Shown piece by piece: positions 9,391-43,238 of a DNA stretch of 48,598 nucleotides. Position 1 is the stretch's first letter. Every line of letters starts with the position of its first letter. The stretch comes from a virus. The DNA is taken from IMG/VR virus record IMGVR_UViG_3300035698_003454, positions 1 to 48,598 of that record, one strand, 5' to 3'. The notes under the pieces were generated by a model. It ran no database searches. It had not been told where the DNA came from and worked only from the letters and a program-made list of their open reading frames with translations. The translations under genes were made by a program, and so were the position numbers.

Positions 9391-9727
9391 AATAGCTCCT
9401 TGTAAGTATGCAGCACATGATTGTGACTGCAAGGTTTTAAAAAGGATAGGGAAGAACCCCTACACACAAGAGAGAGCATAGGTAGCAGGCAGAGGGATAG
9501 GGTTGTTAGGGTATTGTTTTTTTTGGTCAGAGTACCCCTTTGCCAGACCAAGCCAGACCAATCTAGCCAGCTTACAGGAATTGGGGGTCTACCTACCCCT
9601 ATATACGTTCCTCTCAATCCCAAGAGTCTTTATGAAAAAAAATATGAAATAATTTTCCCTGAGAGCTCTATATTTGCTATAAAGAAAAAATTGTGAAATA
9701 CTTTTATAAGAGAATAAGGAGTTGTTA
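9391..9727. other. Noncoding leader region before the large terminase
   Basis: About 340 bases. It holds the second hairpin motif (9437-9470), a purine-rich patch with repeated GATAGGG/TTAGGG (9497-9520), a run of eight T (9518-9525), a C-rich patch with CCAGACCAA repeated twice (9541-9575) and an AT-rich stretch before the terminase ribosome site. Short ORFs here have no ribosome sites and no coding character. A promoter for the large terminase is likely in the AT-rich part but I cannot place it. Confidence 0.55.
9437..9470 (-). promoter_or_regulatory. Hairpin motif, copy 2, upstream of the SSB-like gene
   Basis: AAAAAGGATAGGGAAGAACC followed by CCTACACACAAG. It is the same design as the copy at 8111-8148, with stem TAGGG/CCCTA and AAAAAGGATAGGGAA shared exactly. 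It lies 47 bases upstream of the SSB-like ATG on the minus strand. Confidence 0.5.
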
Positions 9728-22096: not shown

Positions 22097-23659
22097 ATGA
22101 CAATATCAAAATTCATGAATACCGATCAGGATCTTGACTGGGAAAAGGCAAGTGATGATCAGTTACGGCAACAAGCTGGATATTTAACAAGTCAAGTTAA
22201 TCCAAATACAGGAACAAATTTTACTCCTACTGAAATTGCTAATGGAGCTATGGAGTTTGGTGTTAGTCGTGAGAATATGACTAATGCTTTTAGCGTCTCC
22301 GGTGGGGCTGATTATAATAATACAATTAATGATGCTTATAGCTATCCTGCACCGAATACCGTATCTGATTCTCTCAAAACTTATAATTCAGAAGACAATC
22401 ATACCTATACAGATCTTTTAGCGAGGAATGATCCTGCTGCTGATATAGTTAAGGAAGAGCCTAAAAGCCCAACTGACTATTCAAATTATTTTTCTCTTGA
22501 GGACATGCAAGGACTATTGGCTGATCAACAAACAGCACTTAACACAGGTTTTGACACTAGGTTGCAACAAACAAAAGATGATATTTCTGGATTATCACAG
22601 CCACAAGCTATTATTGCCCCAAAATATACAGCTGAAGAATATCAATTTAATCCGGATCAATTAACGTCATATCAACTACAAGGATTGTTAGCAGAAAACG
22701 GACAATATATTCAACAAGCCAGAAATCAGGCAATGAACGAAGCTCGACGTTATGGCATGACAAGTTCTTCAATGGCTGTTGGTGCTGCTCAAGGTGCTGC
22801 TATTGAGAGAGCAGAGATTATTGCTAATGCTGATGCTCTGGCTGCTCAAGAAGCAGAGGTACAGAGAGTTACAGGAATTAATACAGCTAATGCTGATAAT
22901 GCTAAAGCACAACTTGATGCGGCCTTAGCAACTGGTCAAATTGAACAACAACAATATAATACAATGGTGAATAATCTTTTTTATAACCTCGAAGTTCAGA
23001 ACCAAGAAGTTGCTGATCAAATATCTCAAGGAACTACTGCACAAACTGATCTGATTAAAATTGATCGAGCTGGTCAATGGGATATGTCAATGTCGGAACT
23101 TGGGTTTGGTCAAAATAAGACATTAACGCAAATGGGGTTTGGTCATGATTTTGATATGTCAACTCTTGGGTTTGACCAAAGTGTTAAACTAAGTACACTT
23201 ACCCATGAACAAAAAGTCGAATTGCAGAATACACAAATAAATGCTGATAAATGGGAAGCAAGATTAGAGGATACTTTTACCCGTCAGATGGCTGATATGG
23301 ATCAAGAGTATCGCTATGATGAATTAGCATCTGAAGAAAAGATACAACTAATTGAATTATTTGATAATGCTTCACAGCAATATCAAATTCAAGCACAAGA
23401 TATAGCTTCTGATCCAAAAATGGATGATGACGCCAAAATTATTGCTCTGATGAGAGCAGAAAATACTTATGTTGGTGGTGCTATTCTAGCAGCTAATATG
23501 CTTGGATATGAAATATCTTTTGATGATATCGACTTTATGAATGGAGTTACTGAAATAGCTAAGGATCTTGTAGCGGGGGTACCAGCAGCAACTCCTAGAT
23601 ATCCCAGAGGTACAGTTGGGATTAACCCTGAAGCTTGGGCTATGGGTCAGAGCTATTGA
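22097..23659 (+). CDS. Putative internal virion / injected protein
   Basis: A 520-residue, Gln/Ala/Asp-rich, mainly helical protein with AAAGGAG before ATG at 22097. The N-terminal part has the pattern DWEKASDDQLRQQAGYL and ENMTNAF, seen in ejected proteins of podoviruses. The middle has a long helical segment (about 205-300: QQARNQAMNEARRYGM, EAEVQRV) and short similar blocks SELGFGQNK, QMGFGHDFD, TLGFDQSVK at regular spacing, a three-fold internal repeat. It probably leaves the head with the DNA. Family not certain. Confidence 0.6.
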   Translation: MTISKFMNTDQDLDWEKASDDQLRQQAGYLTSQVNPNTGTNFTPTEIANGAMEFGVSRENMTNAFSVSGGADYNNTINDAYSYPAPNTVSDSLKTYNSEDNHTYTDLLARNDPAADIVKEEPKSPTDYSNYFSLEDMQGLLADQQTALNTGFDTRLQQTKDDISGLSQPQAIIAPKYTAEEYQFNPDQLTSYQLQGLLAENGQYIQQARNQAMNEARRYGMTSSSMAVGAAQGAAIERAEIIANADALAAQEAEVQRVTGINTANADNAKAQLDAALATGQIEQQQYNTMVNNLFYNLEVQNQEVADQISQGTTAQTDLIKIDRAGQWDMSMSELGFGQNKTLTQMGFGHDFDMSTLGFDQSVKLSTLTHEQKVELQNTQINADKWEARLEDTFTRQMADMDQEYRYDELASEEKIQLIELFDNASQQYQIQAQDIASDPKMDDDAKIIALMRAENTYVGGAILAANMLGYEISFDDIDFMNGVTEIAKDLVAGVPAATPRYPRGTVGINPEAWAMGQSY

Positions 23660-24132
23660 TTAAAAAATTAACTATCGACGATAAAGATATTCTGAATAGA
23701 ATTGTATCTCATCCTGATGTGTACCCACATATTATAGATGACTATGCAGATAATAGTCTTGTTGACCAGTATGGAGAGTTATTATTAAAAGCAGGATTTC
23801 CTATAATCTCTGATTGTGAAGGGATTGCTTTTATTCTGATGCCAAGAAGCCATACTGTTTTTGATGTCCATACCATAATACTTCCAGAATCAAGAGGTCG
23901 TAAAGCTATTGACACCGCAAAAGAGATAGCACGGTTTGTGTTTGAGAACACGACATGCAAAAAGATTAATTCAGAAATAAGGGTTGGTGATCGGGCAACG
24001 ATGTTGTTTGCCTTGAGGGTTGGATTTAAGAAACAGGGTATTAATACAAAAAGTTTTTTACTTAACGGTGAATTATTAGACCAATATGTTGTCGGTCTTG
24101 AAAGGAGTCAGATATGCCAGCTGGGGCAATAG
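23656..24132 (+). CDS. GNAT-like acetyltransferase-fold virion-region protein
   Basis: A protein of about 158 residues. The start is probably TTG at 23656, which overlaps the upstream stop; a further TTG at 23635 is also open. The central block LPESRGRKAIDTAKEIARFV matches the acetyl-CoA-binding motif of GNAT proteins (R/Q-x-x-G-x-A), and RATMLFALRVGFKKQG matches the last GNAT helix and strand. GNAT-like proteins are known among podovirus internal proteins, where the enzyme activity is uncertain. It could acetylate host or virion lysines, or use the fold structurally. Confidence 0.7.
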   Translation: MIKKLTIDDKDILNRIVSHPDVYPHIIDDYADNSLVDQYGELLLKAGFPIISDCEGIAFILMPRSHTVFDVHTIILPESRGRKAIDTAKEIARFVFENTTCKKINSEIRVGDRATMLFALRVGFKKQGINTKSFLLNGELLDQYVVGLERSQICQLGQ

Positions 24133-24878
24133 GAGCGATTGGTAGTTTTATAGGCAGCCTTGGTGCTAGTGCCGGAGTAGCTACGGGGATAGCCACTGGG
24201 ATGGTTTATGGAGCAGCAATAGGTGGTGTTTCAGCAGCTATAAGCGGAGATAACATTCTTGAGGGAATGTTTAAGGGCGGGGCGATTGGTGGCGTTACTG
24301 GCGGTATTGGTAATGTGTTGTCAAGCGGAGCAAAAGCAGCAGCAACAGCAGCTGAAGCTGGCGCATCAGCCTCTGGGGTGACATCAACAGGGGGTCTTGA
24401 AGGCACCATGTTTGCCGCTGAGAGTGCTGGCACAGGATTAACCACGGGTGGCCTTGAAGGCACAATGTTTGCTGGAGATGTTGGTGGTAATATAATTAAT
24501 GCCGCTCCAGCAGCAGAGCTTGTTAATGGTTCAAGTATTAACAACCCAGGATTAAGTATGTTTCAAAAAAATGCTGGGCTTTTAAAACAAACCAATCCAA
24601 CAAAAGGTGAAATGTTTGACAAGTTAATACATGGTGCCACTAATATGTCCGAAGGTTCAGGAGCATTTTGGGGGCATACTGTTGGTGAATTAGGGCAAGG
24701 GCTTATGGGAAAAATGAGTGCTGATGCACAACGAGAAGCTGAAGAATTAGCTTATCAGCGATCAAGAAAGCACATTAGCCCAGAAGTTGGTACTGCTTTA
24801 AATAGAGTTTCAGCTCCAAGACTTGTTTCTGCTCCGTTATCTTATAGAGAAAAATTACTCGCAAGGGGGCAAGCATGA
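24114..24878 (+). CDS. Gly/Ala-rich putative membrane-penetrating injected protein
   Basis: A 254-residue protein with AAAGGAG before ATG at 24114. Residues 1-75 are extremely rich in Gly, Ala and Ile (GAIGSFIGSLGASAGVATG) with GxxxG-type spacings, typical of proteins that insert in the inner membrane and form an ejection channel (as P22 gp7/gp20 and T7 gp14 do). Two near-identical blocks GGLEGTMFA lie at about 95 and 113. The C-terminus is a polar helix. Overlaps both neighbours. Role by composition and position. Confidence 0.6.
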   Translation: MPAGAIGAIGSFIGSLGASAGVATGIATGMVYGAAIGGVSAAISGDNILEGMFKGGAIGGVTGGIGNVLSSGAKAAATAAEAGASASGVTSTGGLEGTMFAAESAGTGLTTGGLEGTMFAGDVGGNIINAAPAAELVNGSSINNPGLSMFQKNAGLLKQTNPTKGEMFDKLIHGATNMSEGSGAFWGHTVGELGQGLMGKMSADAQREAEELAYQRSRKHISPEVGTALNRVSAPRLVSAPLSYREKLLARGQA

Positions 24879-25399
24879 TTGAACCACAAGTAGAACAAGA
24901 ACAAGGCAACCCCCAGCAACAAACTTTTGACCATTTGTTAGCTAAAGCAATGAAGCTAATTTATAATGACAAAATTAATGCACAATTAATAAAAACAATT
25001 AAAACAGGGGAGCCAGTACAGGCTATCGGAAATATTGTTTTAACAGTTATTGAAAAACTAGAAACATCTGCTGCTAAATCAAACAAACAAATTCCCCAAG
25101 AGATGCTTCCAGATCTTGCTTTGTCTTTAATCGCTCAATTAGTGGAACTGGTAAATGCTGATGGGGAAATTCAGATAGACGAAAAGAAACAATCTTTAAT
25201 ATTTAGTTATGCAGTCCAAGAGTATATGAAAAAAGGGATAGCTTCAGGGAAAATTACACAAGAAGAGGCACAACAAGCTCTTGAATCTCTCAAGCAAAAA
25301 CAAACTGAGACTGCTCCACAACAAGCACAACAAGCACAACCAGTTACACAACCTCAACAAGTACCACAACAGCAACCGACAGGAGGGCTATTAACATGA
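24875..25399 (+). CDS. Gln/Pro-rich virion-region protein
   Basis: A 174-residue protein. Residues 15-140 are helical with repeats of small charged helices. The last about 35 residues are a low-complexity Gln/Pro tract (QQAQQAQPVTQPQQVPQQQP) ending GGLLT. Its ATG overlaps the upstream stop, and its stop overlaps the next ATG, so it belongs to the same operon of injected-type proteins. No family recognised. Confidence 0.55.
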   Translation: MIEPQVEQEQGNPQQQTFDHLLAKAMKLIYNDKINAQLIKTIKTGEPVQAIGNIVLTVIEKLETSAAKSNKQIPQEMLPDLALSLIAQLVELVNADGEIQIDEKKQSLIFSYAVQEYMKKGIASGKITQEEAQQALESLKQKQTETAPQQAQQAQPVTQPQQVPQQQPTGGLLT

Positions 25400-26325
25400 G
25401 TGGATTCGGTTATATTGCAGCTGGGCTATTGTCTGGGGCTGGGAAGGGGATGGTTGCAAATTCTGCTATTAAATCTGATGAAAGAAAAGAAGCGAATAAG
25501 GTTGCTGCTCTAAAAGAAATTGCTGAAGCTAAAGAAGCACATGATTTAGCATTGGAAAAGATACGAAACACAAACAATATGGCAGGTAGACAGTTTACCG
25601 TTGATGAAGGTGCTAAGGCTCAGAAGGTTCAAAATGAGTATACTTCCGATCTATTAACCGCAGAGCAAACACGCCAAGACAATAAAGACGAAAAAAAGAT
25701 AGTTACTAAAGATGTTTACGATGGGGGTACAAGAGAAACATATAGCGTTGACTATCGTAGAGATTCAAAATCTGGAAAGCTGATAGAGGTAGGAAGAACA
25801 CTAAAAAGCGTTGCTAAGCCTGCTGAGATGATCCCACGAGAATCAAAAGATTATGATACATGGACAAAAGATAGAGATAGCCTTGCTGTGCTCAAGAAAG
25901 ACGCTGCTATTGCAAGGAACGGTGGGATTGATAAAAATAGTCTATCTATAATTCCAAACCCACAACTTGCTGCTGAATATGATGCCCAAATAAAAGCTCA
26001 AGAAAAAATGATGCTAGATATGTACAGTAAATATAAATGGTATCAAGACGCTACAGGAGCTACTAAAGAAGCAGCTACATGGAAGCAGGATATGGCTAGA
26101 CTGACGAAGTTATCAGGCATGTCTGAGCCACAAATAACATCAGTCATTGGAACAGATTATACCGATGCTGAAATTAATGATATGGCAACTAACTTTAATG
26201 ATAATAGAACCCAGAAGATACTGACAGTCCTTAAAGATAAGAAGCCAGAGATTTACAGAGAAGTGGTTAAGAGAGCTAAGACAACTAATGGTAAGAAGGA
26301 CGGCCTTTTAAACGTTTTGTTTTAA
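25396..26325 (+). CDS. Putative injected protein, possibly cut short by an in-frame TAA
   Basis: A 309-residue protein with a Gly-rich N-terminus (FGYIAAGLLSGAGKGMV) followed by a helical, charged body. The frame ends in TAA at 26323, but the same frame then stays open for 39 more sense codons to TAG at 26443: GYDPFNKESVDNLSRQEQLQ, followed by a Gln/Arg-rich tail ending GISTF. That tail has normal protein character and fills the otherwise empty gap before the next gene, so the ancestral protein was probably 349 residues. Either a nonsense change or stop-codon read-through would explain it. Confidence 0.65.
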   Translation: MSGFGYIAAGLLSGAGKGMVANSAIKSDERKEANKVAALKEIAEAKEAHDLALEKIRNTNNMAGRQFTVDEGAKAQKVQNEYTSDLLTAEQTRQDNKDEKKIVTKDVYDGGTRETYSVDYRRDSKSGKLIEVGRTLKSVAKPAEMIPRESKDYDTWTKDRDSLAVLKKDAAIARNGGIDKNSLSIIPNPQLAAEYDAQIKAQEKMMLDMYSKYKWYQDATGATKEAATWKQDMARLTKLSGMSEPQITSVIGTDYTDAEINDMATNFNDNRTQKILTVLKDKKPEIYREVVKRAKTTNGKKDGLLNVLF

Positions 26326-26459: not shown

Positions 26460-29400
26460 ATGGGATTTGTAGATAATATTTTTAGTGAAAAAGACGAAGA
26501 GAACGCTGGGTTCCAGCCACTTTCTTTAGATAATGAGTATCAGCAGGTTTTAGAGCAAGAGAAAAGAGACGCTGACCTAGAAGAGCAGCAACGTCAACAA
26601 GAACTTCAATCTGCTAGAGATGCAGAGCCTACTAGAAGCGCACTTGGTGAGGTTGGCACTGGTCTATATACCTCTGCTGTTGATGTACTCCCACAGATGG
26701 CATTCAATGCTCTGGCTGGGGTGGCTTCAGCAGATAGCGATTTAGAGATATGGGCTAACGAACAAGCAGCAGAGCAAGAACGTGATATGCAGTTGCCTAC
26801 CCATGCTCTTCAACAAAATAGACATAATAAAGTAACGAATGCTTTTGCTGCTGGTGCTCAGAGTGCTGCACCTACGTTAGCTATTGGACTTGTTGCTGCA
26901 TTACCTGTTCCTGGGGCTAGACCCGCTGCTGCTGGTATGGCAATGAGTTTGTTCGGCGGGAGTTCCTTTAACGAAACGTACCAGAACATACTAAAAGACA
27001 CTGGAGATGCTGATCTAGCATTCAAGACAGGTCTTAAGACAGGGGTAATAGACGGAACTCTTGATACTGCCATGACAGTAGCTTGGGGTGGGTTCCTTAA
27101 GGCGGCTAAGATTGGTGCTGGTGGGAAGACAGTAATACAAGTGCTTAACAAGATGAAGAACCCTAAAGCACTCAAAACTTTTGCTAAAAACCTTGGGATA
27201 ATGGAAGCATCAGAGATATCAACAGAGATATTCCAAGATATTTCTACTGAGGCGATAGAGAGTAATGCTACTGGTAGAGAACATGCTAACTACATGGACA
27301 TTGCTAAAGAGACAGGTACTGCTACTGCTGCGATGACTCTTATGCTAGGGTCATTAGGTGGTTTTTCACATATCAGGCGTAACATTCACAACCAAGCAAT
27401 TATTAAGACAGTAGAATCAGCAGAATCATCAGCAGACGCTAGGATGGAAGCTGGGTTAAAGATATACAACCAGCTAAAAAAAGTTGACGAAAAGGATGCT
27501 GAGGTTTGGGCTGCTGGTGTAATTGAAGCAGTCGATGAGAACATATCTCTCGACCTAATGAACCCAGGGGATGCTGTTACAGCTAAGAATAAGTTTGATG
27601 AAGCATTAGCTAAAAAGAATAAAACCTCTGAAGAACAAGTTGTTGCAGCACACCAAGCTGCTGAAGAAACTGTACCAATTGAAGGTGATCCTCTTGAAAG
27701 ACAAGAAAAAATCCTTCATCAAGAAACTGCGAATTTGGTTGCTAGTGTTGGAACTCAAAATACTGTTAATCAATTACGGCAAGGACAAACAATAACAGTA
27801 CAAAGCCAAGATGCTGCTATAGATATTTTCTTTTCTCTAGATGCAGCAGAGATGTCAACCCAGACTAAAATAAATGATGATGGTACTGTAACTATCATTC
27901 CTAAGCTCAAAGAAGCACCTGTAGAAGCAAGTGTACCTACGGATAATCCACAAACGGATGCTTACCCTATACCTACTATACCTGGGACAGAAGAAGCTCT
28001 TAATAAGCCTATTTCTGTAGATGATAAACCTTCTGGCGTGATCTTCCAGAGGAATGGTAATACATATAAAACAGAAAAGACTGCTCTTAATGCATTAACT
28101 CTCCGTAAAGATCTAAATACAGAAGATCATGAAATAGTTCCGCATGGTGATGGTTTTGTTATCCAGCCAAAGACATCTATAAATGATGATCTTGCTGGTA
28201 ATCCTGAGGAAGCTTATGTTCCTCCAGAACCAATAGCTAAAGAAGACTTTACTCAGTACAATGAGATCTTTGATAAAGATTTATCTCCTGAAGAAATTGC
28301 TAAAAATCAAGCAGAACATGTAGCTAAGTTACAAGAAGATGATGATGGTGGCTACATATTACAATTATCAAAAGAAGATAGAGAAGAAGTTGATAAAGAC
28401 TTAGAGGTTAAACTAACTGAAACACTTAAGAAGCATGGTGTTGATGTCAAAGTCCTTCCATCTCTTAAGAAGAAATATGGGATTGATGCTCTAGGTGCTA
28501 CTGACGTTGTTAAAAAGATAGTTGCTATTAAAGAAGATAGAGATATTAGCACTCTCCCAGAAGAGACTGCTCACGTAGTTATGGCACTCTCTGGTGATAA
28601 GAAGATCCAGAACCAATTAAACATATTACGCAATGGTATTAAGTCTTGGGATGGTTTTGCTGCTGTTCAAGAAGAATATAAAGATACCTATGGTACAGAA
28701 GCAGAAATCATAGATGAGGCTGTAGCTAAATTAATATCTAGTTCTATTGTAGCTAAAGGCAAGAAGACTCCTCTACACAAACAAGCACTTAATATCATTA
28801 AGGATTTTATTAATTGGATTAAGGCTACTATAGGAAATGATGTTGCTAAGAACAGACTTGCTGCTAATAAAGTAGCTAAAGCCATTCTCAAAGGCAAAAC
28901 AGGCACAACTATTGAGTCTGATAGTAATGTTAAGTTTCAGATGGCTGGAGATAAAAGTGCTACGTTAGATAAGGTTGTTCGTAAGCAGGCTATCTCACTT
29001 GAAAAAGAAGGGAAGACTTCTGAAAAGATATGGAATGAAACAGGCTTTGTTAAAGTTCATGGAAAGTGGAAATATGAAATCAGTGATAAGAACTCAAAAC
29101 TTGTTAAAGGGTTTGACGTAACAAAGAAAAATACCAAGCAAGCTTTACCTCTTCATATAGTCTTAAAGCATGAAACACTTTATCAGGCTTATCCTGAGCT
29201 TCAAGATTACACAATTAAGTTTAATTCTGAAATGGATGAAGGTCATTATGGGACTTTCTTTGCCAAAGACAAGATCATTGAACTAAACAATAGTCTTAGC
29301 GGTGACTTCTTACATGGAGTTATTTTTCATGAGGTACAACATGCCATTCAATCACTAGAAGGCTGGCCTATTGGTCGTGGTGATACATTTACCTATAATG

Positions 29401-30356
29401 ATGAAGTTCAGATGCGTAAAGCATACGACATAGTAGAAGGTGTAGAGAAAGACCTTCTTGCAGGTAAAACATATCAACAATTTTCAGCTAAGTATGATGA
29501 AGGATCAGAAGAGTTAAGTTTAGCAAAAGAACTCCTTGGAGAAGAAAGACAGAAGAATAGCTCGTATAACAATGCATTAATGATGTACTGGAGTTGGAAT
29601 AACCATAAACTCAAAGCAGGAGAAAAGCTTTATAAGAGATCTGCTGGTGAAGTTGAAGCAAGGAATACAGCTCTAAGGTTTAATTCACAGCTAGATGAGT
29701 TCCCTATTAAGACAATGGATGTTGGCCCATCACAACAGTATGTTGAGTTTAATTCTGATGGTAGCTTAGTTCAAGCTTCTAAGACTGTCCAGCCTGTATC
29801 CAAGGTTGGACAAGGAATAAATATTAGTTCTTATGAGGCTGGTCTAGGTAAGAAGCTAACTAATTTTGCATATCTTCCAGTTGTCTTTCGTGGCAAAACA
29901 TATAAAAGATCTGAAGATGCATATCAACAAAATAAAACAAAAGATTTAAGTGATGCTGCTGTTAAGTCTCTGATGGTAGAAGTCTTAACTGCTAAATTAA
30001 CTCAGAATCCAGATCTTGTTAAAGAGATAAATGAACTTGGTGGCATTAAAGCTTTAAATAACTCAACGCATAATCTTATAAAAAATGGTAATGAGATTAA
30101 AAAAGATCGTTGGACAGGTAAAGATGGCTTGTTTATGCAATCTCTTCGTGAAGCATATTCTACCCTGTCTAAGACTGAACAAAAGAAACCTATTGGTAAA
30201 AAAGCTGCTATACCTCCTAACCTAGAAGTAACAGTGCCTAGAATCACAGAAGATGGTGACACAGTCCCGATACAAGTTAATGCTAAAGAAGAACATGCTA
30301 TGTTGACTGCAAAAAAAGATAAACTATCTGTTATCTTGGAGTGTTTGAGAACATGA
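26460..30356 (+). CDS. Polyvalent injected protein: zincin-like and NADAR-like domains
   Basis: A 1298-residue multidomain protein. Residues about 60-310 form a Gly/Ala-rich hydrophobic helical region like those of ejected virion proteins (APTLAIGLVAALPVPGARPA). Around 695-750 is a degenerate zincin-like site, LPEETAHVV, with Glu in place of the first His. At 957-961 is HEVQH, followed at 1063-1068 by GEVEAR, the layout of the polyvalent-protein metallopeptidase-like domain (LPD23 type). Residues about 1119-1240 resemble NADAR: LTNFAYLPVVFRGKTYKRSE, then DAYQ, with the usual H of E-H-A-Y-Q changed to D and the Glu kept. Such proteins are packaged and delivered with the DNA to act on host defences. 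NADAR enzymes remove ADP-ribose from guanine bases. Domain calls from pattern memory. Confidence 0.65.
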   Translation: MGFVDNIFSEKDEENAGFQPLSLDNEYQQVLEQEKRDADLEEQQRQQELQSARDAEPTRSALGEVGTGLYTSAVDVLPQMAFNALAGVASADSDLEIWANEQAAEQERDMQLPTHALQQNRHNKVTNAFAAGAQSAAPTLAIGLVAALPVPGARPAAAGMAMSLFGGSSFNETYQNILKDTGDADLAFKTGLKTGVIDGTLDTAMTVAWGGFLKAAKIGAGGKTVIQVLNKMKNPKALKTFAKNLGIMEASEISTEIFQDISTEAIESNATGREHANYMDIAKETGTATAAMTLMLGSLGGFSHIRRNIHNQAIIKTVESAESSADARMEAGLKIYNQLKKVDEKDAEVWAAGVIEAVDENISLDLMNPGDAVTAKNKFDEALAKKNKTSEEQVVAAHQAAEETVPIEGDPLERQEKILHQETANLVASVGTQNTVNQLRQGQTITVQSQDAAIDIFFSLDAAEMSTQTKINDDGTVTIIPKLKEAPVEASVPTDNPQTDAYPIPTIPGTEEALNKPISVDDKPSGVIFQRNGNTYKTEKTALNALTLRKDLNTEDHEIVPHGDGFVIQPKTSINDDLAGNPEEAYVPPEPIAKEDFTQYNEIFDKDLSPEEIAKNQAEHVAKLQEDDDGGYILQLSKEDREEVDKDLEVKLTETLKKHGVDVKVLPSLKKKYGIDALGATDVVKKIVAIKEDRDISTLPEETAHVVMALSGDKKIQNQLNILRNGIKSWDGFAAVQEEYKDTYGTEAEIIDEAVAKLISSSIVAKGKKTPLHKQALNIIKDFINWIKATIGNDVAKNRLAANKVAKAILKGKTGTTIESDSNVKFQMAGDKSATLDKVVRKQAISLEKEGKTSEKIWNETGFVKVHGKWKYEISDKNSKLVKGFDVTKKNTKQALPLHIVLKHETLYQAYPELQDYTIKFNSEMDEGHYGTFFAKDKIIELNNSLSGDFLHGVIFHEVQHAIQSLEGWPIGRGDTFTYNDEVQMRKAYDIVEGVEKDLLAGKTYQQFSAKYDEGSEELSLAKELLGEERQKNSSYNNALMMYWSWNNHKLKAGEKLYKRSAGEVEARNTALRFNSQLDEFPIKTMDVGPSQQYVEFNSDGSLVQASKTVQPVSKVGQGINISSYEAGLGKKLTNFAYLPVVFRGKTYKRSEDAYQQNKTKDLSDAAVKSLMVEVLTAKLTQNPDLVKEINELGGIKALNNSTHNLIKNGNEIKKDRWTGKDGLFMQSLREAYSTLSKTEQKKPIGKKAAIPPNLEVTVPRITEDGDTVPIQVNAKEEHAMLTAKKDKLSVILECLRT

Positions 30357-30673: not shown

Positions 30674-30854
30674 CTCATCATACTTCAATCCAGAATATTT
30701 CAACGAGTTCTTTAAAATATCTGGAACTGTTATAGAAGATGGTGGTGGTAATAGTAGTGTTTATGTTAATTGGCAGCAACTTCAAGCAATGCAACTCCGC
30801 AAAGGTGATGAAGATATTTTAGAGTTCATTGTTGCCTTTGTGTTGAGCCGCTAG
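30666..30854 (+). CDS. 62-residue hypothetical protein
   Basis: The ATG at 30666 lies in the last codons of the upstream gene. Aromatic N-terminus (FSSSYFNPEYFNEFFKI), a Gly-rich turn and a hydrophobic C-terminal helix (ILEFIVAFVLSR). No family recognised. The spacing of eight bases to the 2584-residue gene suggests co-translation. Confidence 0.5.
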   Translation: MFSSSYFNPEYFNEFFKISGTVIEDGGGNSSVYVNWQQLQAMQLRKGDEDILEFIVAFVLSR

Positions 30855-30862
30855 GAGATAAA

Positions 30863-33800
30863 ATGGGATCACTTTTTAATTGTTTAAAAACTCATAATTG
30901 TCCACAAGAACTCCGAATAGAAATCAATGAGCTAAAGAAAGCTTATTTAAAAGAAGGATACCAGTTGTCCCCTGCTGAAATTACGTCTGTAGAAAACCTG
31001 CTGACTGAATCAGAAGATATGATTGCTAGTATTGATAAGCAAGTCTTACAGCATAAGCAAGATTATATGGCTAAGATAAAGCCAGCATCTAATGTTCAAG
31101 AAGAAATCCTTGATGAAGATATGTCTGAAGAACAAATAATGTTGGATGACAACTTTGATGGTGAGATATTAGATGAAGATATTGAAGGTGATAACATCGA
31201 TGATGCTGCTCATGAGATTCTAAATGAAGATACTCCAAAGCTTAAAGGCAAGAAGAAATCAGCTAAAGAAGCACAAAAAGAAGTATACGCAGAAAGACTT
31301 GATAAAGACTTTACTGATGAAGAGAAAGCTGAAGTATTAGCTCAAAGAAAAGAACAAGAAGCAAGAGAAATAGAAGATGCTGTAAAGCAAGAAACAAATA
31401 TGAAGAACAAAGAAGCTCGTCAAGCTGCTAAGGCAAAGCAGAGAGCCTATGAAGCAGAACATAAACTACTACCAAGTAGAATCATCTATCCAGCTTGGAT
31501 GCCTTTAAGTGAGAAAGAACGTCAGCAAGTTATCCATGCATATCATCGTGGTGACATTGATGTATTAACAGGTCATGTCAACAAGTCATATCCTGTTGGT
31601 CAGACTTCTGAGACTTCCGAAGCTAAGGCAATGTATCAGTCTGAGGAAGAGACTAAGAGACAGAAAGCAGAGCGTAGTGATGATGCTCCTCTTGCTGGTA
31701 ATAATAGAACTAGAACAGATGAGGAACACCATGAAGCTGTGTTTGGAAATGAAGATGGTGGAAAGTTTACTGAAGCAAACAGAACAGCTAAACCAAAACA
31801 AGGTGCTAAACCTGCTAGGGTTATTGAGTCTATTCCCGCTGGTATAGAACGTACAGGGTCTATAGCTGCATTAATAGAAGATACCCTTGCCTCCCTTAAG
31901 CCTCTTGCTTCTGCTTGGGGTTCTGTTAACCGTGAAGACTTTGCTGTTCAGGCTGCTACTGATCCTACTGGAGTTGAAGTACAGAAAGCTTCTCAACAGT
32001 TTAAAAGTGTACGCTTGCTCCATGAGCTTCTTTATAAGCAGAATAAGAGCAACACAGGCAAGAGATATAACCTTATAAACAATCTAGTCAATGGCAATAT
32101 CAATGATATCTTTACTACAACTGTTCAAACAGTTAATGAAACAGATGATTCTGAATTTATAGATGAGTTTTATAAAGAGAATGGTGAACAGATAGTTTCT
32201 ATTGGTAAGCAACTTGCTAAGTCTAAGATGGCTCCAGAAGCTCAAGCATATATGATTGAAATGTTAAATGATCTAAGTGATATCATGTCTGTTAAAGATA
32301 TAGTCTCTGAGGTTCTTTCTTCTGATGGATACCTAGGCATAGGACAGCTAGATAACATTCCTGAAGCTCTGTTTGATATCCATGCATATGCCAACACCCT
32401 TAACCATGAATACTATGGTCAATATGCTAATGATGTATTTATCCCTGATTATCGCATTGGTGCTGCTATTAAAGCTTTTGCTAATAGGAATCCTAGGCTC
32501 TATGAATATTATGAGCCAGTTCTTCGTGCATTTTTGACTGATCAAACAAAAATATATGAGTTTGTAAAAGAAGCACAAAGTCTTAGGGACAAATGGCAAG
32601 TTGAATCGTTATTTGAAAAAACATTTTCTACTAAAGATAATGAAATCAAATTCAATGAAGAAATTTATAATCTCTCAAGTCTTTTAGTTGAGAAGAATAT
32701 TATTGAGGAATCTCTTTTTATTAAATCAAATAGGAAAGTTGAAGAAGCTGTTAAGAAGGTACAGAAAGCAGCTAATGAAACTGCTTATGCTGTAGACAGA
32801 GATGGTTTTACAACTGTCATAGAACTTATTGAAACAGAGAACAATAAGCCACTTGATGAAGAGAAGGTATCTGAAAGACTTAAGCAGCATTCTCTGTTTA
32901 ACAATATGGGTAAGCAGAATTTTCGTGCGCTGCTTGAAGCCCTTAGAAGCATAGCCTTTGAGAAAGTAGATGATGTTGGTATAGATGCTAATAGATTGTC
33001 TGTTACTAAGCTTGCTAAGCAGATGCTTGAGCAGAAGCAGACATCAAATGAATTAAAGATGTTTCTTAACCAAGCACTCAGGAAGAATACTGTAGTCCGC
33101 ACAAAAGAAAAAAGAAAGATATCAGTTGCTGGTACAAAATATCTGCAAGCTATTGTTAAAGCATACAATGAAAACAAGTATGGGCAAATACCAGAAGGAA
33201 TCTCTGAAGATGATTATTACGTCTTAGATGAAATCCTTAAGTCCATGAAATACGATCCTTATCTTAATCTAAACTATGATCTTTTGGCTACTAGACTAGA
33301 AAAGCATAAGAACATAACTAATTCTTTTAAAGATTCTATTAAAAAGGCTTTTGATACAGGCCGAGTTGATAAAATAAATAGCAGAACTATATCTGAGGAT
33401 GGTGCTGTTCTTATCCAGAAGATGCTCAAGAGTATCTACCTATTAGACAATAGTTGGATAAATGAATCTGAAGGACTAGATCTTAATGCTGAAGCTATTG
33501 ATGAACTCTTTGATGTAGCTGATAGACGAAAGCAGCAATGGCTAGAAGATAAAGAAGAGCAGACTGTTAATCGTGGTAAAGAAGCTACGATGCCAATTAA
33601 GAAAGCTGCAAAAGAAGACACCGATCAAAGAGATAGAGTTGATAAGGCTGAATGGTACAATGACCTTGCTACCTTAATTGATTATGCTCTACGTCCTAAT
33701 GGACCTATTGAACGTGTTGTTGCAAAGAAGCTTTCTAAGCATAAGATAGCTAAATCTGATTTTGCTATGAAAGTAAGGAATGAATTAATTGCTAGAAGAG

Positions 33801-36800
33801 AAAAGCTTTTAGATCTACTTGAGCGTTCATATAGCAAAGATAGTTTCTTTAAAAAAGGTGGTGGTGCTGCTAATATTAAATATACCTCTACTCATAAAGA
33901 AAGCTTGAAAGTTGTTGATGAGTATCTCAAGAAAGATTTAAGCAAAGAAGAAATAAAAGAAGTCCAAACTATAAGAAACCAGCTTATTGCTAATAAAGAT
34001 CTTACTCTTGAAGCTATGGAGCATAAGGGAACTTCTGGTGATCTTATAAGGTATGGTCGGCTTAAAGATGTAAATGAATCAGATAAAGCTATGAGATGGG
34101 CATTGCTAGACTTACGTACTGATATAGCTGCTGAACACTTTGCTAATAACAACCATAGCCTTGTTAATGACTTTAAAGACTTTGAAGATGGTCAGTTTAA
34201 GGACTTAGGCTGGAGCAGACAAGAAGCTTTAAAGAAGTTTATGTCTGTTGGAGAGAATCCTTCTAGGTTTGCTAAGCTAATAGATCAGAAAAGGATGGAT
34301 AACCATGTTGATGTAGCTGCCTATATGTTTGATAACTCAGATCAAGGCGATCCTTCTGGAGTTATTAGTCATATATTTGGTAAAGATATTAGCAAAACAT
34401 TCCATGATATATTTCTATCTGTAGGCAATAAGGTTGATGGTGAAACTAAATCAATAGGTGATAGGCTTCTTGATCTTACACCTAAAAACCGTCAGAAGGT
34501 TAACGCTGCTAAGAAGATATATGATGCTCTGCTGTCTACTAAGTCAGAAGGGGTAGAGATAGCAACAATCTTAAATGAGGAAGGTATTACTCCTGATTCT
34601 TCTGTAGTGATTACTATTCCAAAGAAGCTATCTAAATATGAAATGAAGATAGAGGCTCAAACTCCAAGAGAGTACAATGCAGATCTTGGTGATAAGGGCT
34701 TGCTTGGTAGATCAATAGGTAAGCTAAGAAGCAAGGCTGCTCAGAAGTTCTATGAAAAGGTAGCTGAGTCTTTAGGTGCAAAGCTTATTGTCATTAATGA
34801 TCTTGGTATGCGGTCACAGTATCGTATTGCTCCAGATGGTACTCCAAGTATCATTGTTAATATCCAAGACGATAACTCCTTTAACAATGTTTTCTCCCAT
34901 GAAGTCTTTCATCATATCCTTAATAAATCTTCTATTCGTTCTGCTGATTTCTTTAAGAAGGCTTTGTACGATAGTGTTGTTAACCAAAAGGTATTTGATC
35001 TTGCTGTAGATAAAGCTATGGAGAATAATCCGTATCTATCTCTTAAAGGTGCTGAAGAAGAAGTCATAGCAGAAGTCTTTGCCAAGTCTCTTAATGATAA
35101 AGACTTCTATAAGGAATTGGTTAAGCTCAAAGGTGGAAACCTATTAGCTGCTGATACTATTAATCGTATTGTAGAACATGCTCTAGCAATAGAGAACCTA
35201 CAGGAAACTGAAGGTGCATTTACCTTTGAAGGACAGAGGTTAATCAATCCAGAGAACCAAGAGCCTCTACAGAAACTTATCTTAGATTTACTTGGTGCTG
35301 TAGAAGACAATGCTCCACTTCAAAGCGAGCAGACTAAGTACCATACTCCTTTACTTGGTAGACAATCTAAAGAATCTCTTGAGCAGCTTGCTAGTAACAA
35401 GAAGAGCTGGCTTAAAGGTATATGGAGAGCAATCTTTCCAGAAGGCACTAAAGGTTATAAAGCCATTATGCAGCGCCTTGAAGATATAGTTAATAACACT
35501 ATCAAATATCTTGCTGAGAAGGCTCCTAAGTTTATCTATGCTGACTTTGGTTCAACTGCTATTGAAAAACGTATTGCTGATCTAGTAGTACATGGGGCAG
35601 AAGAATTAGTTACTGCTACAGGATTCCGTTTAGAGAAACATTCTGCTGCCTTTAAAGGACGTACACAGATAGAACTTGAGTATATCCATGATCGTATTAG
35701 AAAGGGTCTAAAGGTTGTCTTAAAGGATGGTGAGATACAACGTCATAAAGATGGAACAGTTAAATATACCAAAGAGGCTGCTCTAGACTTTAGTAATGAT
35801 GAAGATGTAAAGACTGCTCTTAAAGAAGGCATCCCTCAAGAAGTCATAGATGCATTTAAAGACTTCCAAGAGATAGCAGAGAAACAATATAAGAAGCTAA
35901 AGAGATTTGTCCCTAACCTTAATTATGATCCAAACCACTACGGGCAGTATATACAATGGCGCAATAAGGACTTAAGCCCTGTAGATGATAGTATGGGTGC
36001 AGTAGTAAGCTCAATGTCGAAATTAGAGGGGAATACGGGCTTTCTCGAAGAGAAAAATAGGGATAAGTCTGTAGAAGAAATTAAGAAGTCAGGTAGGAAC
36101 TACCAGACCATAGATCCTATCAAGATGATGATGGGATACATGGAAGCAACTGAACGTATGGTTAATACTCGTAAGGCTATTGATATTGCAATTAGCATGG
36201 GTGTTGGTAAAAAATTCATAGATGATTTTGAAGCTAAAAAAGAAAACATGTACGGAGTTGATGATCTTGCTTTTAGTGTTCTAACTGATAAAGATGCAGG
36301 GATAGGATTCCAGCTTAAGGTAGATGGTGTTTTAGAAGAAGATATCTATGACAATGAAGAAGCTGCTTTAGCTGCTGCTAGTCAAATAGATGCAGAGGTT
36401 GAACTTATTAAGACTTCTGTTGATCAAAAGAAAACTTTATCAGGCTGGAAAGTATATTTAGAGCGTAAAGGTGAACTACCTAAAGAGCTTTCTGAAACAA
36501 CTTCTAAAGAAAGAGCAGAAGAATTAGTTGCTCATTTCATGGATAAGAGAACAGATCCTTCACATATGTTTGTTATTAAACCTCATTTCATTATGCAAAC
36601 AAAGCCAGTATCCCTAGAACAGGTTTATTTCTCTAAAGGTCTTGCTCGTATGCTTAAGACAACTGTTGCTTCTGATCGTTTCAAAAACCTAAAGATATTT
36701 GGTATCTCAGGTAGACAGATTCTTGATTGGAAACATCAACTGACTGCTATTGAATTTGCTTTCTCTACATTCCACTTAATGACAATCATTCCAGAAATGA

Positions 36801-38617
36801 CTGCATCAACAATGACTACTCGTTTTCGCAAGGCTAAGGGTTTAGGTAAGATCAATGCTCTTAACCCTGCTGCTGCTATGTGGGAAGGGTTTAGAAGTGC
36901 TAGAGAGGTCAATGCTTTAGTTCGTGCTGTTATGGCTGATCCTAATCTTGCAAACGATCCAAAAGTAAAGAAATTATTTGATAAGTATTTTGGTACTGAA
37001 GATGCTGATATACAAGATATTGTCTCTATGTTCTTTTCTCAAGGTGGGATTGTAGGTCAAGATGCTGATCTACGTACAAGTCTCTATAGCCATGGCAAGA
37101 TGAAGTACCTACCTGTTAAAAAACAACTGATGTTTGAAGAAGGTCATGCTTATATTGGTCAAGAAGGACACAACACAGTCCGAGGGATAGTAAAAGAGAT
37201 AGGTGGATCATTTGCTGCTCATTATCAAGAAACAATAAATCAGATACCAGAAGGTCCATTACGTGAAGCCTTTGCTGCTCTTAAGACAGTTCAGTACGCT
37301 GGTATGCAGGGTATGTCTGAATGGTTAATGGAACAGACTATCCCAATGGTTAAGATGAAAGTATTTATGGATGAGTATACTCAGAATCTTAAACGTGATG
37401 CTGCTGATATTGAATCGGGTAAAAAAACAAAGCATCAAGTAGCATGGGATGTAATTAAGTTTACTGAAGATAGATTTGGTGAGGTTAACTGGAAGAACAA
37501 TTGGATGGACCCAACATTGAAGTCTTCTTTGATGTTTGCATTTAGATCATTCACTTGGTTTACAGGTTCATGGTTTGCTCTAGGTAAAACAGGTATCGAC
37601 TTTGCTAAAGCAGGATGGGCTGTTACTAAAGGTGATGGACAAAATGTAAGACTAACAGAAAAGGGTATGTGGTTTCTTAATGCTATGTTTGTTCATGCTG
37701 TTACTTCTATAGCCTATGCTTCATTGTTTGCTCTTGTATCTGGTGATGATGATGACTTGGTAGAAGATGATCAAGACATTCCATTGTTCTACAGACTTAT
37801 GTTCCCAAGGTATGAAGCTGCTGATCCTTCTAAGCGGTTACTGATTCCTGGTTACCCAACTGAGTTTATAAAGATCTTCCATCATTTAGGATTTGATGGT
37901 TCAGAGCCAGAAGCAACTAAGATGATTACTGGTCGATTTAGTAGTGTCTTGAGTAAGAGCATAGAAGCGTACCAAGGACAGAACTGGAGAGGTGTACAGA
38001 TAGTAAATGAAGATCATCCTCTTCCAATTAAGGCTATTGAGTACGCTGCTCATATTCTCTTTACTCCTCCTATTTCTATTAATACGATGATGAGTGATTT
38101 CAAAAAGGTTGGGTTTGATCCTAAATTGCCTCTTATGAGGATAAGTGGTCTTACTGATGCGCCTGCTTTTGCTAAACATTCTAGGGCAAGTCTTAAGCTT
38201 AATAAACTTAAAAGAGCTACATTCTCAGAGAATGCTGTACCGATTGAGAAAGCAGAGGATCGTGATGATGTTAGAAGGGCTGCTTATAAATATGCTAAAG
38301 GTAACAAGCAACCACTACTAGATATGATTCCTGAAAGACTTACTGATAAACAAGCTATCAATGCTATTAGTCGCTACAAGGTCATAGATGGACAACCTAA
38401 TAGATTTTATGTAGATTATATTGTTAGAGACTTAAGGAATGCAAGTATCCTTCATGCTCTTGCAGGCTGGAAAGTAATGACTGATTCAGAAAAAGATAGG
38501 TCAAAAAGAATTATAACCAAGAAGTATTATAACTATATAAATAGTAAAGATCATTCACAGAAAGAAAAGAATAAAGCAACAATGTTATACATAGTTTCTA
38601 AAGTAGAGGAGACATAA
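30863..38617 (+). CDS. Giant polyvalent injected protein with a metallopeptidase site
   Basis: A 2584-residue protein with AGGAG before ATG at 30863. The first 400 residues are acidic and low-complexity (DDNFDGEILDEDIEGDN). Long helical regions follow. At 1346-1350 is a full zincin motif, HEVFH followed by another His, with acidic residues 48-58 residues on (EEEVIAEVFAKSL) as possible third ligand. From about 1920 to 2560 is a long helical region rich in Trp, Arg and Met (FGISGRQILDWKHQL, MDPTLKSSLMFAFRSFTWF) resembling the C-terminal polyvalent-protein domain LPD38, with one hydrophobic segment near 2270-2290. Proteins of this build are carried in the virion and ejected into the cell. No RNA-polymerase motifs are seen, so it is not an N4-type virion RNAP. 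Confidence 0.65.
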   Translation: MGSLFNCLKTHNCPQELRIEINELKKAYLKEGYQLSPAEITSVENLLTESEDMIASIDKQVLQHKQDYMAKIKPASNVQEEILDEDMSEEQIMLDDNFDGEILDEDIEGDNIDDAAHEILNEDTPKLKGKKKSAKEAQKEVYAERLDKDFTDEEKAEVLAQRKEQEAREIEDAVKQETNMKNKEARQAAKAKQRAYEAEHKLLPSRIIYPAWMPLSEKERQQVIHAYHRGDIDVLTGHVNKSYPVGQTSETSEAKAMYQSEEETKRQKAERSDDAPLAGNNRTRTDEEHHEAVFGNEDGGKFTEANRTAKPKQGAKPARVIESIPAGIERTGSIAALIEDTLASLKPLASAWGSVNREDFAVQAATDPTGVEVQKASQQFKSVRLLHELLYKQNKSNTGKRYNLINNLVNGNINDIFTTTVQTVNETDDSEFIDEFYKENGEQIVSIGKQLAKSKMAPEAQAYMIEMLNDLSDIMSVKDIVSEVLSSDGYLGIGQLDNIPEALFDIHAYANTLNHEYYGQYANDVFIPDYRIGAAIKAFANRNPRLYEYYEPVLRAFLTDQTKIYEFVKEAQSLRDKWQVESLFEKTFSTKDNEIKFNEEIYNLSSLLVEKNIIEESLFIKSNRKVEEAVKKVQKAANETAYAVDRDGFTTVIELIETENNKPLDEEKVSERLKQHSLFNNMGKQNFRALLEALRSIAFEKVDDVGIDANRLSVTKLAKQMLEQKQTSNELKMFLNQALRKNTVVRTKEKRKISVAGTKYLQAIVKAYNENKYGQIPEGISEDDYYVLDEILKSMKYDPYLNLNYDLLATRLEKHKNITNSFKDSIKKAFDTGRVDKINSRTISEDGAVLIQKMLKSIYLLDNSWINESEGLDLNAEAIDELFDVADRRKQQWLEDKEEQTVNRGKEATMPIKKAAKEDTDQRDRVDKAEWYNDLATLIDYALRPNGPIERVVAKKLSKHKIAKSDFAMKVRNELIARREKLLDLLERSYSKDSFFKKGGGAANIKYTSTHKESLKVVDEYLKKDLSKEEIKEVQTIRNQLIANKDLTLEAMEHKGTSGDLIRYGRLKDVNESDKAMRWALLDLRTDIAAEHFANNNHSLVNDFKDFEDGQFKDLGWSRQEALKKFMSVGENPSRFAKLIDQKRMDNHVDVAAYMFDNSDQGDPSGVISHIFGKDISKTFHDIFLSVGNKVDGETKSIGDRLLDLTPKNRQKVNAAKKIYDALLSTKSEGVEIATILNEEGITPDSSVVITIPKKLSKYEMKIEAQTPREYNADLGDKGLLGRSIGKLRSKAAQKFYEKVAESLGAKLIVINDLGMRSQYRIAPDGTPSIIVNIQDDNSFNNVFSHEVFHHILNKSSIRSADFFKKALYDSVVNQKVFDLAVDKAMENNPYLSLKGAEEEVIAEVFAKSLNDKDFYKELVKLKGGNLLAADTINRIVEHALAIENLQETEGAFTFEGQRLINPENQEPLQKLILDLLGAVEDNAPLQSEQTKYHTPLLGRQSKESLEQLASNKKSWLKGIWRAIFPEGTKGYKAIMQRLEDIVNNTIKYLAEKAPKFIYADFGSTAIEKRIADLVVHGAEELVTATGFRLEKHSAAFKGRTQIELEYIHDRIRKGLKVVLKDGEIQRHKDGTVKYTKEAALDFSNDEDVKTALKEGIPQEVIDAFKDFQEIAEKQYKKLKRFVPNLNYDPNHYGQYIQWRNKDLSPVDDSMGAVVSSMSKLEGNTGFLEEKNRDKSVEEIKKSGRNYQTIDPIKMMMGYMEATERMVNTRKAIDIAISMGVGKKFIDDFEAKKENMYGVDDLAFSVLTDKDAGIGFQLKVDGVLEEDIYDNEEAALAAASQIDAEVELIKTSVDQKKTLSGWKVYLERKGELPKELSETTSKERAEELVAHFMDKRTDPSHMFVIKPHFIMQTKPVSLEQVYFSKGLARMLKTTVASDRFKNLKIFGISGRQILDWKHQLTAIEFAFSTFHLMTIIPEMTASTMTTRFRKAKGLGKINALNPAAAMWEGFRSAREVNALVRAVMADPNLANDPKVKKLFDKYFGTEDADIQDIVSMFFSQGGIVGQDADLRTSLYSHGKMKYLPVKKQLMFEEGHAYIGQEGHNTVRGIVKEIGGSFAAHYQETINQIPEGPLREAFAALKTVQYAGMQGMSEWLMEQTIPMVKMKVFMDEYTQNLKRDAADIESGKKTKHQVAWDVIKFTEDRFGEVNWKNNWMDPTLKSSLMFAFRSFTWFTGSWFALGKTGIDFAKAGWAVTKGDGQNVRLTEKGMWFLNAMFVHAVTSIAYASLFALVSGDDDDLVEDDQDIPLFYRLMFPRYEAADPSKRLLIPGYPTEFIKIFHHLGFDGSEPEATKMITGRFSSVLSKSIEAYQGQNWRGVQIVNEDHPLPIKAIEYAAHILFTPPISINTMMSDFKKVGFDPKLPLMRISGLTDAPAFAKHSRASLKLNKLKRATFSENAVPIEKAEDRDDVRRAAYKYAKGNKQPLLDMIPERLTDKQAINAISRYKVIDGQPNRFYVDYIVRDLRNASILHALAGWKVMTDSEKDRSKRIITKKYYNYINSKDHSQKEKNKATMLYIVSKVEET

Positions 38618-41237: not shown

Positions 41238-42908
41238 ATGATAGGCGTAAATTTACAATTATTCGATGGGGCAACTCAGCAAGCGAGCTTATCAAATATA
41301 CAGGCATTATGGTGGGATGTTGAAGAGCCCAAGGATGGGTCAAAACCTGCTGGCAGATCTGATGCTGTAACTACGGATGCGACGGGTTATATTAACCTAG
41401 ATTTATCTAATGTATCTGGTTTGACAGTTGGTAGTAGTGGTTTTTTATTGCTTTATAAACTAGATGACAGTGACCACGAAGATAGCTTGGTATTTTCCGG
41501 AAAAGTGGCAACGTCAGATATCGAATCCGGCATTGATATGTATTATTATGATTCAGGATGGATTCGTCCTGTAGACTGGCCCAGTCTACCGGATAATAGT
41601 GATGGAGTGCAGAAAATATCAGGTTTATTTGCCGTTTACGATAGGGAAACTGATGGCAATAAAGTTATTTTGCGATGTTCTGCGGCTTATCATGTTGTCT
41701 GGGGTGATGGAGCCAGTGAAGATGTTGCGTCAGGCACTTCCATAACACATGCTTATGATTATGATGATGCTGATTTTGCCAACAGTGCAATTATGGGAAG
41801 ATCCGATACACAAAGCGTTACATTTACAGCAGCTACGGATATCGTAAATTGCACTGGACATGGTTATCAAGATGGACAACACATAAATTTTGCCAGTATC
41901 ACAACTACAACCGGCATATCAACATATACTAGATATTATGTTAGAGACGCAGCTGCAAATACATTTAAAGTTGCAACGACTGTCGACGGAGCTGCTGTAA
42001 CATTAACGAATGATGGATCTGGAACGGTATTTTATCCCCTATACAAATGTGCAGTAGTGACTATCACTCCCCAGGCCGCCAATAATTTAACAGCACTTGA
42101 TCTTGATATGGATGTGTCTGGATATCAATCTAGTCAAAAAGCACCTTGGTTAGATTTGCACATTAACGGAAGTTATTTGGAAACACTTGACTTGAGTGTA
42201 TTAACATTTTTGGAGCAATGTGTGATAGGGGAACACGCCGTTACAACTATGACTTATATGTTCAACGGTTGATATTCTCTGCAATCAGTCCCATTATTCG
42301 ATACTTCTTCAGTTACAACTTTTTATAATATGTTCAGCTATTGTTATTCTATGCAATCAGTACCACTATTCGATACTTCTTCAGTAGAGTCTATGTCTTT
42401 TATGTTCAACCGTTGCTATTCTCTACAATCAGTCCCATTATTTAATACATCAGAAGTTACAACTATGTCTTATATGTTCAGCTCTTGTTATTCTATACAA
42501 TTAGTACCACTATTCGATACTTCTTCAGTAGAGTCTATGTCTTATATGTTCAACGGTTGTTATTCTCTACAATTAGTACCACTATTCGATACTTCTTCAG
42601 TTACAACTTTTTATAATATGTTCATCTCTTGTTATTCTCTACAATCAGTACCACTATTCGATACTTCTTCAGTAGAGTCTATGTCTTATATGTTCAGCGG
42701 TTGTTATTCTCTGAGCCGGGCAGCATTCTCAGGAACAGAAGTTGATATTAGTTATCTAAATTGTAACCTTGGCCCTGATGCGCTGGATGAGATATATACA
42801 AATTTAGCCACTGTAACAGATGAAACAATAACGGTTACAGGGAATTGGGGTACTGCATCCGACGATCCAACAATAGCAACAGCAAAAAATTGGACGGTAA
42901 CGGGATAG
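41238..42908 (+). pseudogene. BspA-like (DUF285) repeat surface protein with an internal TGA
   Basis: One reading frame of 557 codons interrupted by a single TGA at 42270. Before it: a beta-rich N-terminal part and a PKD-like segment (YHVVWGDGASEDVASG, then HAYDY). After it: six 24-residue repeats of the BspA/DUF285 leucine-rich type (YSLQSVPLFDTSSVESMSYM, then FNGC or similar) and a short C-terminal beta domain. The TGA stands where every other repeat has a Cys codon (TGT or TGC). Other genes here end in TGA, so the code is standard. As it stands only the first 344 residues would be made, unless the stop is read through. Probably a host-binding surface protein. Confidence 0.75.
42270..42720 (+). 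repeat. Six 72-bp tandem repeats in the surface protein
   Basis: Near-identical 72-bp units coding YSxQxVPLFxTSxVxxxxxM plus F-x-x-C. Several units are almost identical, alternating between SSVTTFYN and SSVESMSY types, so recent unequal recombination is likely. The unit preceding the array ends in the TGA at 42270. Confidence 0.85.
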
Positions 42909-42917
42909 GGAGTCATT

Positions 42918-43238
42918 ATGAGTGCTGGATTTTACAAGAAAAAAACAGAAACTGAATTATACTATGCTCCAAATTTTGTTAAACATAAAGATTTCACTCT
43001 AACAAAAGAAGCTAAAAACTTGATAGACATGAAAGAAACAGGCGGGTGGAAATGGTTTAATACTTCTACCGCTGCTTATCTTTATTTTCATGTAGCTGAA
43101 AAACTTTGGACAGATGAGCGAATAAAAAAACTAGATCAAATGGATGATCTTGAAAAATTGGTTTTGTTGAATACTGCGAATTTAACTCCAGCTAAAATAG
43201 ATACGGAGTTTACTGAGAGAATAATCAGTAATGGCTAA
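42918..43238 (+). CDS. Hypothetical protein between repeat genes
   Basis: A 106-residue protein, basic and mixed alpha/beta (FYKKKTETELYYAPNFVKHK, then GGWKWFNTSTAAYLYFHVAE). GGAG lies nine bases before ATG at 42918. Its end overlaps the start of the next gene. The central W-K-W segment and C-terminal helix suggest a small adaptor or chaperone for surface proteins. No family recognised. Confidence 0.5.
   Translation: MSAGFYKKKTETELYYAPNFVKHKDFTLTKEAKNLIDMKETGGWKWFNTSTAAYLYFHVAEKLWTDERIKKLDQMDDLEKLVLLNTANLTPAKIDTEFTERIISNG

Follow-up and report, generated by a model that had tools for sequence, protein, structure and literature searches.

The giant gene and the genes around it

Analysed here is a 48,598-base IMG/VR virus record from an uncultivated short-tailed phage, hereafter called the window. 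The best matches place its large terminase with those of the epsilon15/phiV10 kind (46-49% identity over 92-97% of the length). The portal aligns with the SU10 portal family (6.5e-30), and many relatives of the capsid protein occur in IMG/VR, with identities of about 68-72% for the closest. The phage is an epsilon15/SU10-related podovirus. Portal, capsid and tail genes come first, then GNAT, the small proteins and the giant, and finally membrane genes (presumed lysis) and fibres; the part considered here contains the following features.

23635..24132, plus strand: GNAT-like head or internal virion protein (phrog_651, 1e-11), start of the presumed ejection-protein block
24114..24878, plus strand: small Gly/Ala-rich protein of the ejection block; no family match
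24875..25399, plus strand: 174-aa protein of the ejection block, with a weak homologue in L106 (E 0.001)
25396..26325, plus strand: 309-aa protein of the ejection block, no match
26460..30356, plus strand: 1,298-aa polyvalent-type neighbour with LPD23 (residues 827-881) and a zincin-like region (residues 916-969) carrying HEVQH
30853..30858, plus strand: ribosome-binding site AGGAGA, 4 nt upstream of the ATG, read from the sequence
30863..38617, plus strand: giant gene, ATG start, 2,584 aa, 293.7 kDa, free of internal stops; candidate ejected virion protein of polyvalent type
31097..31240, plus strand: acidic low-complexity head, residues about 79-126, with three EIL[D/N]ED repeats (around residues 80-125), from translation and composition
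37682..37738, plus strand: strongest hydrophobic segment of the giant protein (AMFVHAVTSIAYASLFALV), residues 2274-2292, Kyte-Doolittle 1.81

An earlier note on this DNA had described an uninterrupted 2584-codon gene making up about one sixth of the window, with an acidic low-complexity head and a hydrophobic segment near its end, and all three descriptions hold. The gene accounts for 16.0% of the window, the chance of a stop-free run of this length at the window's base composition is about 10^-83, and the GC content of its three codon positions (51/33/26%) shows a clear periodicity. Residues 1-200 of the protein have a net charge of -21 and 49% of residues 101-200 are charged; the chain contains only two cysteines, at residues 7 and 13.

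Between the GNAT-like gene and the giant gene lie three small proteins, the 1,298-aa protein and a pair of very short ORFs; after the giant gene come two membrane proteins resembling lysis genes, and fibre genes. The giant gene is the end of the virion gene block, a very large chain encoded with virion and late genes, as expected of a polyvalent protein. The GNAT-like protein is 36% and 34% identical to the copies in L104 and L106, and BLAST gave no connection between it and the annotated GNAT-like protein of epsilon15, gp13.

The 1,298-aa neighbour carries LPD23 at 1.6e-09 to 3.4e-10, together with a weak DUF6782 match in its HEVQH region. It matches phrog_13543 (3.7e-15), and the PHROG profiles that match it, 1,664-3,427 positions long, represent giant phage protein families. 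Residues 144-405 resemble a protein of 804 aa encoded in L106 (E 2.2e-05), and the C-terminal 200 residues match phrog_1017, a family whose function is not known (5.4e-06), while a scan for homologues with this C-terminus was empty. A NADAR domain suspected there by eye was not confirmed, although control genomes did match. The presence of LPD23 and HEVQH in the neighbour implies that two polyvalent-type proteins lie side by side, each with its own HExxH.

Several other features of the window were observed. The left arm of the contig carries an insertion sequence with an IS3-family transposase (2229-3032, minus strand; integrase core 4e-26) that shares 68% identity with copies from Janthinobacterium and Pseudomonas (ISPpu29). 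The small terminase (8196-8627; GP3_package, 3e-19) and the large terminase (9722-11164) are separated by about 1.1 kb, the small one lying upstream. The gene at 17559-19148 matches the phrog_5107 'amidase' (2.3e-20), yet it is surrounded by tail genes, its conservation extends to 44 related loci and Pfam gives it no amidase match; the label may be wrong. DUF285 repeats (2.4e-26), which take their family name from Mycoplasma proteins, occur in the 192-aa protein encoded at 42330-42908 in the fibre region, and 43231-44175, which adjoins the fibre genes, contains tandem repeats of the type GSFxxPxxSxTPxVxAxxLxG.

A probable zincin domain and the remainder of the chain

A HEVFHH motif in the middle of the chain had been reported before as a complete zincin motif, and our searches agree with that reading. 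The elements of the domain are as follows.

34739..35125, plus strand: zincin-like metallopeptidase domain, residues 1293-1421, from zincin HMMs of the relatives, weak Pfam and PHROGs leads and a fold model
34898..34915, plus strand: HEVFHH catalytic motif, residues 1346-1351
35057..35062, plus strand: downstream EE, presumed to include the third zinc-ligand glutamate, residues 1399-1400, equivalent to the invariant E150 and E151 of the zincin alignment

Because 154 of 2,000 shuffles of the giant protein (about 8%) contain HExxH, the motif by itself counts for little as evidence. HExxH followed by a correctly spaced EE-x-x-[AGS]-[DE]-like motif occurred in none of 2,000 shuffles, this pattern having been picked post hoc, after the alignment had been viewed. 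In a search with an HMM built only from the zincins of the relatives (four sequences), the giant protein ranked next after the training sequences, with a whole-protein E of 0.00066 over residues 1293-1421 and a score of 13.8 bits, the next ORF reaching 3.6; the match spans the strands that precede HExxH as well as the EE motif downstream. When the zincin from a giant on a Massilia plasmid was included, giving a five-sequence model, the result became steadier, and with the four- and five-sequence models the protein scored above unrelated ORFs and shuffles (whole-protein E 0.00066-0.00076). The same was true of every version of the five-sequence model with one sequence left out (E 0.0005-0.27), although without L127 the protein rose above background just barely. 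The values of only 0.06-0.27 with some training sets count against the assignment, as does the fragility of three-sequence models (E 0.018-15), which can drop into noise. Scanned alone, the segment gave weak matches to the Pfam family DUF5700, a putative zinc peptidase (E 0.0021, below the family's cut-off), and to the phrog_87 metallo-protease (E 0.0013).

An AlphaFold model based on a four-row alignment has low confidence (pLDDT 49, pTM 0.58), but its elements follow the expected order of helix, strands, HExxH helix and later glutamate-bearing helix, with HExxH and the downstream glutamates on helices at model residues 91-106 and 145-161. Plain Foldseek with this low-confidence model found nothing significant (best E 0.48); in VIA-align the nearest solved structures, at low Z (best 3.9), were mostly gluzincins, namely PprI, MATCAP, lethal factor, PPEP and MtfA-like proteins. 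The protein thus combines HExxH (residues 1346-1350) with a downstream glutamate on a second helix (residues 1399-1400), the gluzincin arrangement, and the relatives' HMMs and the extended post hoc motif link it to zincins of polyvalent type. A zincin domain is very likely present in the giant protein.

What the peptidase might cut is a separate matter. Zincins are the commonest domain among polyvalent proteins, and two roles have been proposed for them: processing of the chain, in the head or inside the host, and attack on host proteins (Iyer, Burroughs, Anantharaman, Aravind 2017, PMC5512222). The second of these options would make the zincin an effector whose target, once the protein is ejected, is not the phage chain but a host protein, for instance a defence factor or a transcription factor. 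The neighbours of the weak model include the substrate-specific lethal factor and PPEP and the regulator-type PprI, and are consistent with such a role. However, a single peptidase within a 294-kDa chain better fits processing, for which P1 DdrB provides a precedent (PMC5512222), and recognition of a host target found no support; we consider an effector role unlikely.

Searches with a single zincin recovered only the query's own contig, nothing in phages, and one Massilia plasmid giant annotated PLxRFG. This gene, of about 5,555 codons, is carried on the 87-kb plasmid NZ_CP024609 of Massilia violaceinigra (L144) and contains two HExxH motifs; its first zincin is related to those of the phage giants (28% identity, E 2e-4).

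The zincin is the sole recognisable domain of the giant protein and leaves about 2,450 residues without assignment. Searches of the remaining chain against Pfam, PHROGs, NCBIfam, PDB sequences, phage records and plasmids gave no match, nor did pattern scans of IMG/VR and of GTDB genomes, which bears out the earlier statement that most of its length resembles nothing known. No whole-chain homologue was found by tblastn of phages and plasmids, and the IMG/VR pattern scans, with the whole chain and with a C-terminal piece, were empty, as were the GTDB genome scans and, carrying little weight alone, the comparison with 50 related records. Because no sequence homologue of the chain was found, its conservation is without direct support. 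Isolated weak matches to Frankia_peptide, TrpR, AprA winged helix, RNA polymerase beta and SoxY were taken as chance.

The protein had been judged not to be an N4-type virion polymerase, and rightly so: neither Pfam, PHROGs, NCBIfam nor PDB sequences gave a polymerase match above noise, and the only trace was phrog_2044 (E 0.016 across 44 residues). The suggestion that it might hold further host-acting domains, or the missing cell-wall hydrolase, was not supported by the profile searches, which a very divergent hydrolase may have escaped. Scanned segment by segment, the chain gave no match to a peptidoglycan hydrolase (lysozyme, transglycosylase or amidase), ADP-ribosyltransferase, methylase or nuclease, and beyond the zincin no LPD, ART, RNase or other catalogued domain was detected. 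The domain-by-domain check proposed earlier was positive in the profiles for the zincin alone; the single-sequence structure prediction for the C-terminus, made without an alignment, is unusable (pLDDT 37).

An LPD38-like helical end had also been proposed, and membership of that family is not borne out. The Pfam scan gave no match to LPD38 (PF18857), a profile of seven LPD38-bearing or LPD38-related C-termini (L124-L126, MetMV, MW202426, Vibrio D96a and Bacteroides BF1-TP2) matched the giant protein no better than shuffles, and hhalign gave a probability of 0.2%. In local mode, a restricted profile comparison beat 149 of 150 shuffles and all 150 window segments, but over 26 columns, and the global mode gave no signal. 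By eye, the order of hydrophobic helix, D-rich patch, IPxxP and NWxG resembles LPD38. We rejected LPD38 as a sequence-level assignment and, because it is undetected in the protein, use 'LPD38-like' for a resemblance only.

The C-terminus also bears on whether the giant could be a purely structural ejection protein, a channel component of the T7 gp16 kind in which the zincin would act in assembly only or be inactive. Ejection proteins are mosaic and diverge beyond recognition, and gp16-like proteins have C-terminal membrane-spanning helices (PMC8954989). The hydrophobic segment of the giant and its place, which matches that of epsilon15 gp16/gp17, fit this description; there is no sequence match, and the C-terminal model offers no guidance. 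Against it, the giant is about twice the size of T7 gp16, and the retention of HExxH together with the downstream EE argues against an inactive relic. A purely structural role seems to us quite improbable.

Giants at the equivalent place in related phages

Ten distinct giants of about 1,900-3,900 aa occupy the equivalent place in ten related records: those read from contigs G003, G004, G007, G010, G019, G020, G028 and G040 (1,935-3,905 aa) and the annotated ones of UFJF_PfDIW6 and vir555. The G037 giant is the same as that of G040 and was not counted twice. HExxH is present in nine of the ten, the exception being G020. Counting against a general rule, no giant ORF was present in the stretch read of G036, G043, G044, G046, G047 and G049. 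Three of the four giants scanned contain certified Pfam polyvalent-protein domains: LPD5 (3.4e-44), LPD38 (5.6e-40), ART-PolyVal (1e-29) and LPD1 (2.3e-17) in that of L126, InPase (4.3e-53) and RadC (5.8e-16) in that of L109, and LPD22 (4.9e-22) in UFJF_PfDIW6 gp16. The relatives' giants are mosaic, with some stretches common at 45-60% identity and the remainder unrelated.

Compared with these proteins by phmmer without filters, the window's giant has no significant similarity. G010 and G020, the closest of the long relatives, have giants of 3,558 aa (with HExxH) and 3,905 aa, respectively, at the same place within the same virion gene order, and the capsid and portal of G010 are 69% and 56% identical to those of the window; nevertheless, neither giant has detectable sequence similarity to ours. 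The gene has been replaced or has diverged completely relative to the G010 and G020 giants, and the lack of similarity to the G010 giant despite the close capsid and portal indicates that its turnover is much faster than that of the virion genes. That the giant is an orphan by sequence in a recognisable phage lineage thus points to fast turnover of cargo under a constant virion.

A gene for which no relatives were found in the databases searched might encode a mere head filler without specific function. However, 2,584 open codons with normal codon periodicity and a good start, an intact zincin signature, and the keeping of giants at this place in many relatives despite sequence turnover all speak against it, and we hold it to be extremely improbable.

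Proposed role and comparison with known systems

The giant of phage JC1, gp69 (4,515 aa), was detected in purified virions by mass spectrometry (PMC9144972), and gp20-24 of SU10 belong to the virion but are gone once the genome has been released (PMC9509320). In light of these reports and the proposals of Iyer et al., we favour, with moderate confidence, the reading that the giant is a packaged and ejected internal virion protein of the polyvalent kind, whose zincin would most likely serve self-processing. The protein would be packaged in the head and enter the cell via the short tail, either before the DNA or along with it; the GNAT-like protein, the 1,298-aa neighbour and the small proteins would accompany it. 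The mid-chain zincin would most likely cut the giant polypeptide itself, perhaps the neighbour too, into working pieces, either in the head or after entry, and the C-terminal third with its hydrophobic segment probably serves packaging and envelope passage. The earlier note had called the protein injected: it does hold the position of ejected virion proteins, and from gene order and relatives we infer the injection itself. This reading is weakened by the fact that polyvalent proteins are defined by several functional domains, while one is recognisable here.

A bolder possibility, which we regard as rather doubtful, is that residues of about 130-1290 and 1480-1950 contain host-acting domains of undescribed families, freed by the zincin after ejection, and that a set of two proteins (1,298 and 2,584 aa, each with a zincin) replaces one larger giant. 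Giants of this sort are believed to belong to the earliest phage proteins at work in a newly entered host, and the two adjacent zincin-bearing proteins offer a concrete system for the proposed self-processing of polyvalent proteins. The protein is a sequence orphan, new to the databases searched, of an already known kind rather than a new kind of system.

Among known proteins, the N4 virion RNA polymerase is another podovirus giant with a reported zincin (PMC5512222), but no polymerase domain was found in the window's giant. Polyvalent proteins such as the L126 and L109 giants share with it a giant chain in the virion block, an in-chain zincin and long unassigned stretches, and the window has LPD23 in the neighbouring gene; the difference is that no LPD, ART, methylase, RNase or other catalogued domain could be detected in the window's giant next to the zincin. 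JC1 gp69, a Bcep22 DarB-like giant, also lies at the end of a podovirus virion block, downstream of a RimL-like (GNAT) gene and before the lysis genes, although it has transglycosylase-like, helicase/methylase-like, LPD3 and LPD38 matches that the window's giant lacks. UFJF_PfDIW6 gp16 (2,039 aa) contains HExxH like our protein but carries LPD22 and has no detectable sequence similarity to it, and epsilon15 has neither a protein of this size nor detectable similarity. In both phages, the annotated gene order (epsilon15 gp13-gp17; gp13-gp16 in the Pseudomonas phage UFJF_PfDIW6) is nonetheless comparable to that of the window, the large terminases are 46-49% identical, and epsilon15 gp15-gp17 and UFJF_PfDIW6 gp16 occupy the same place as the giant described here.
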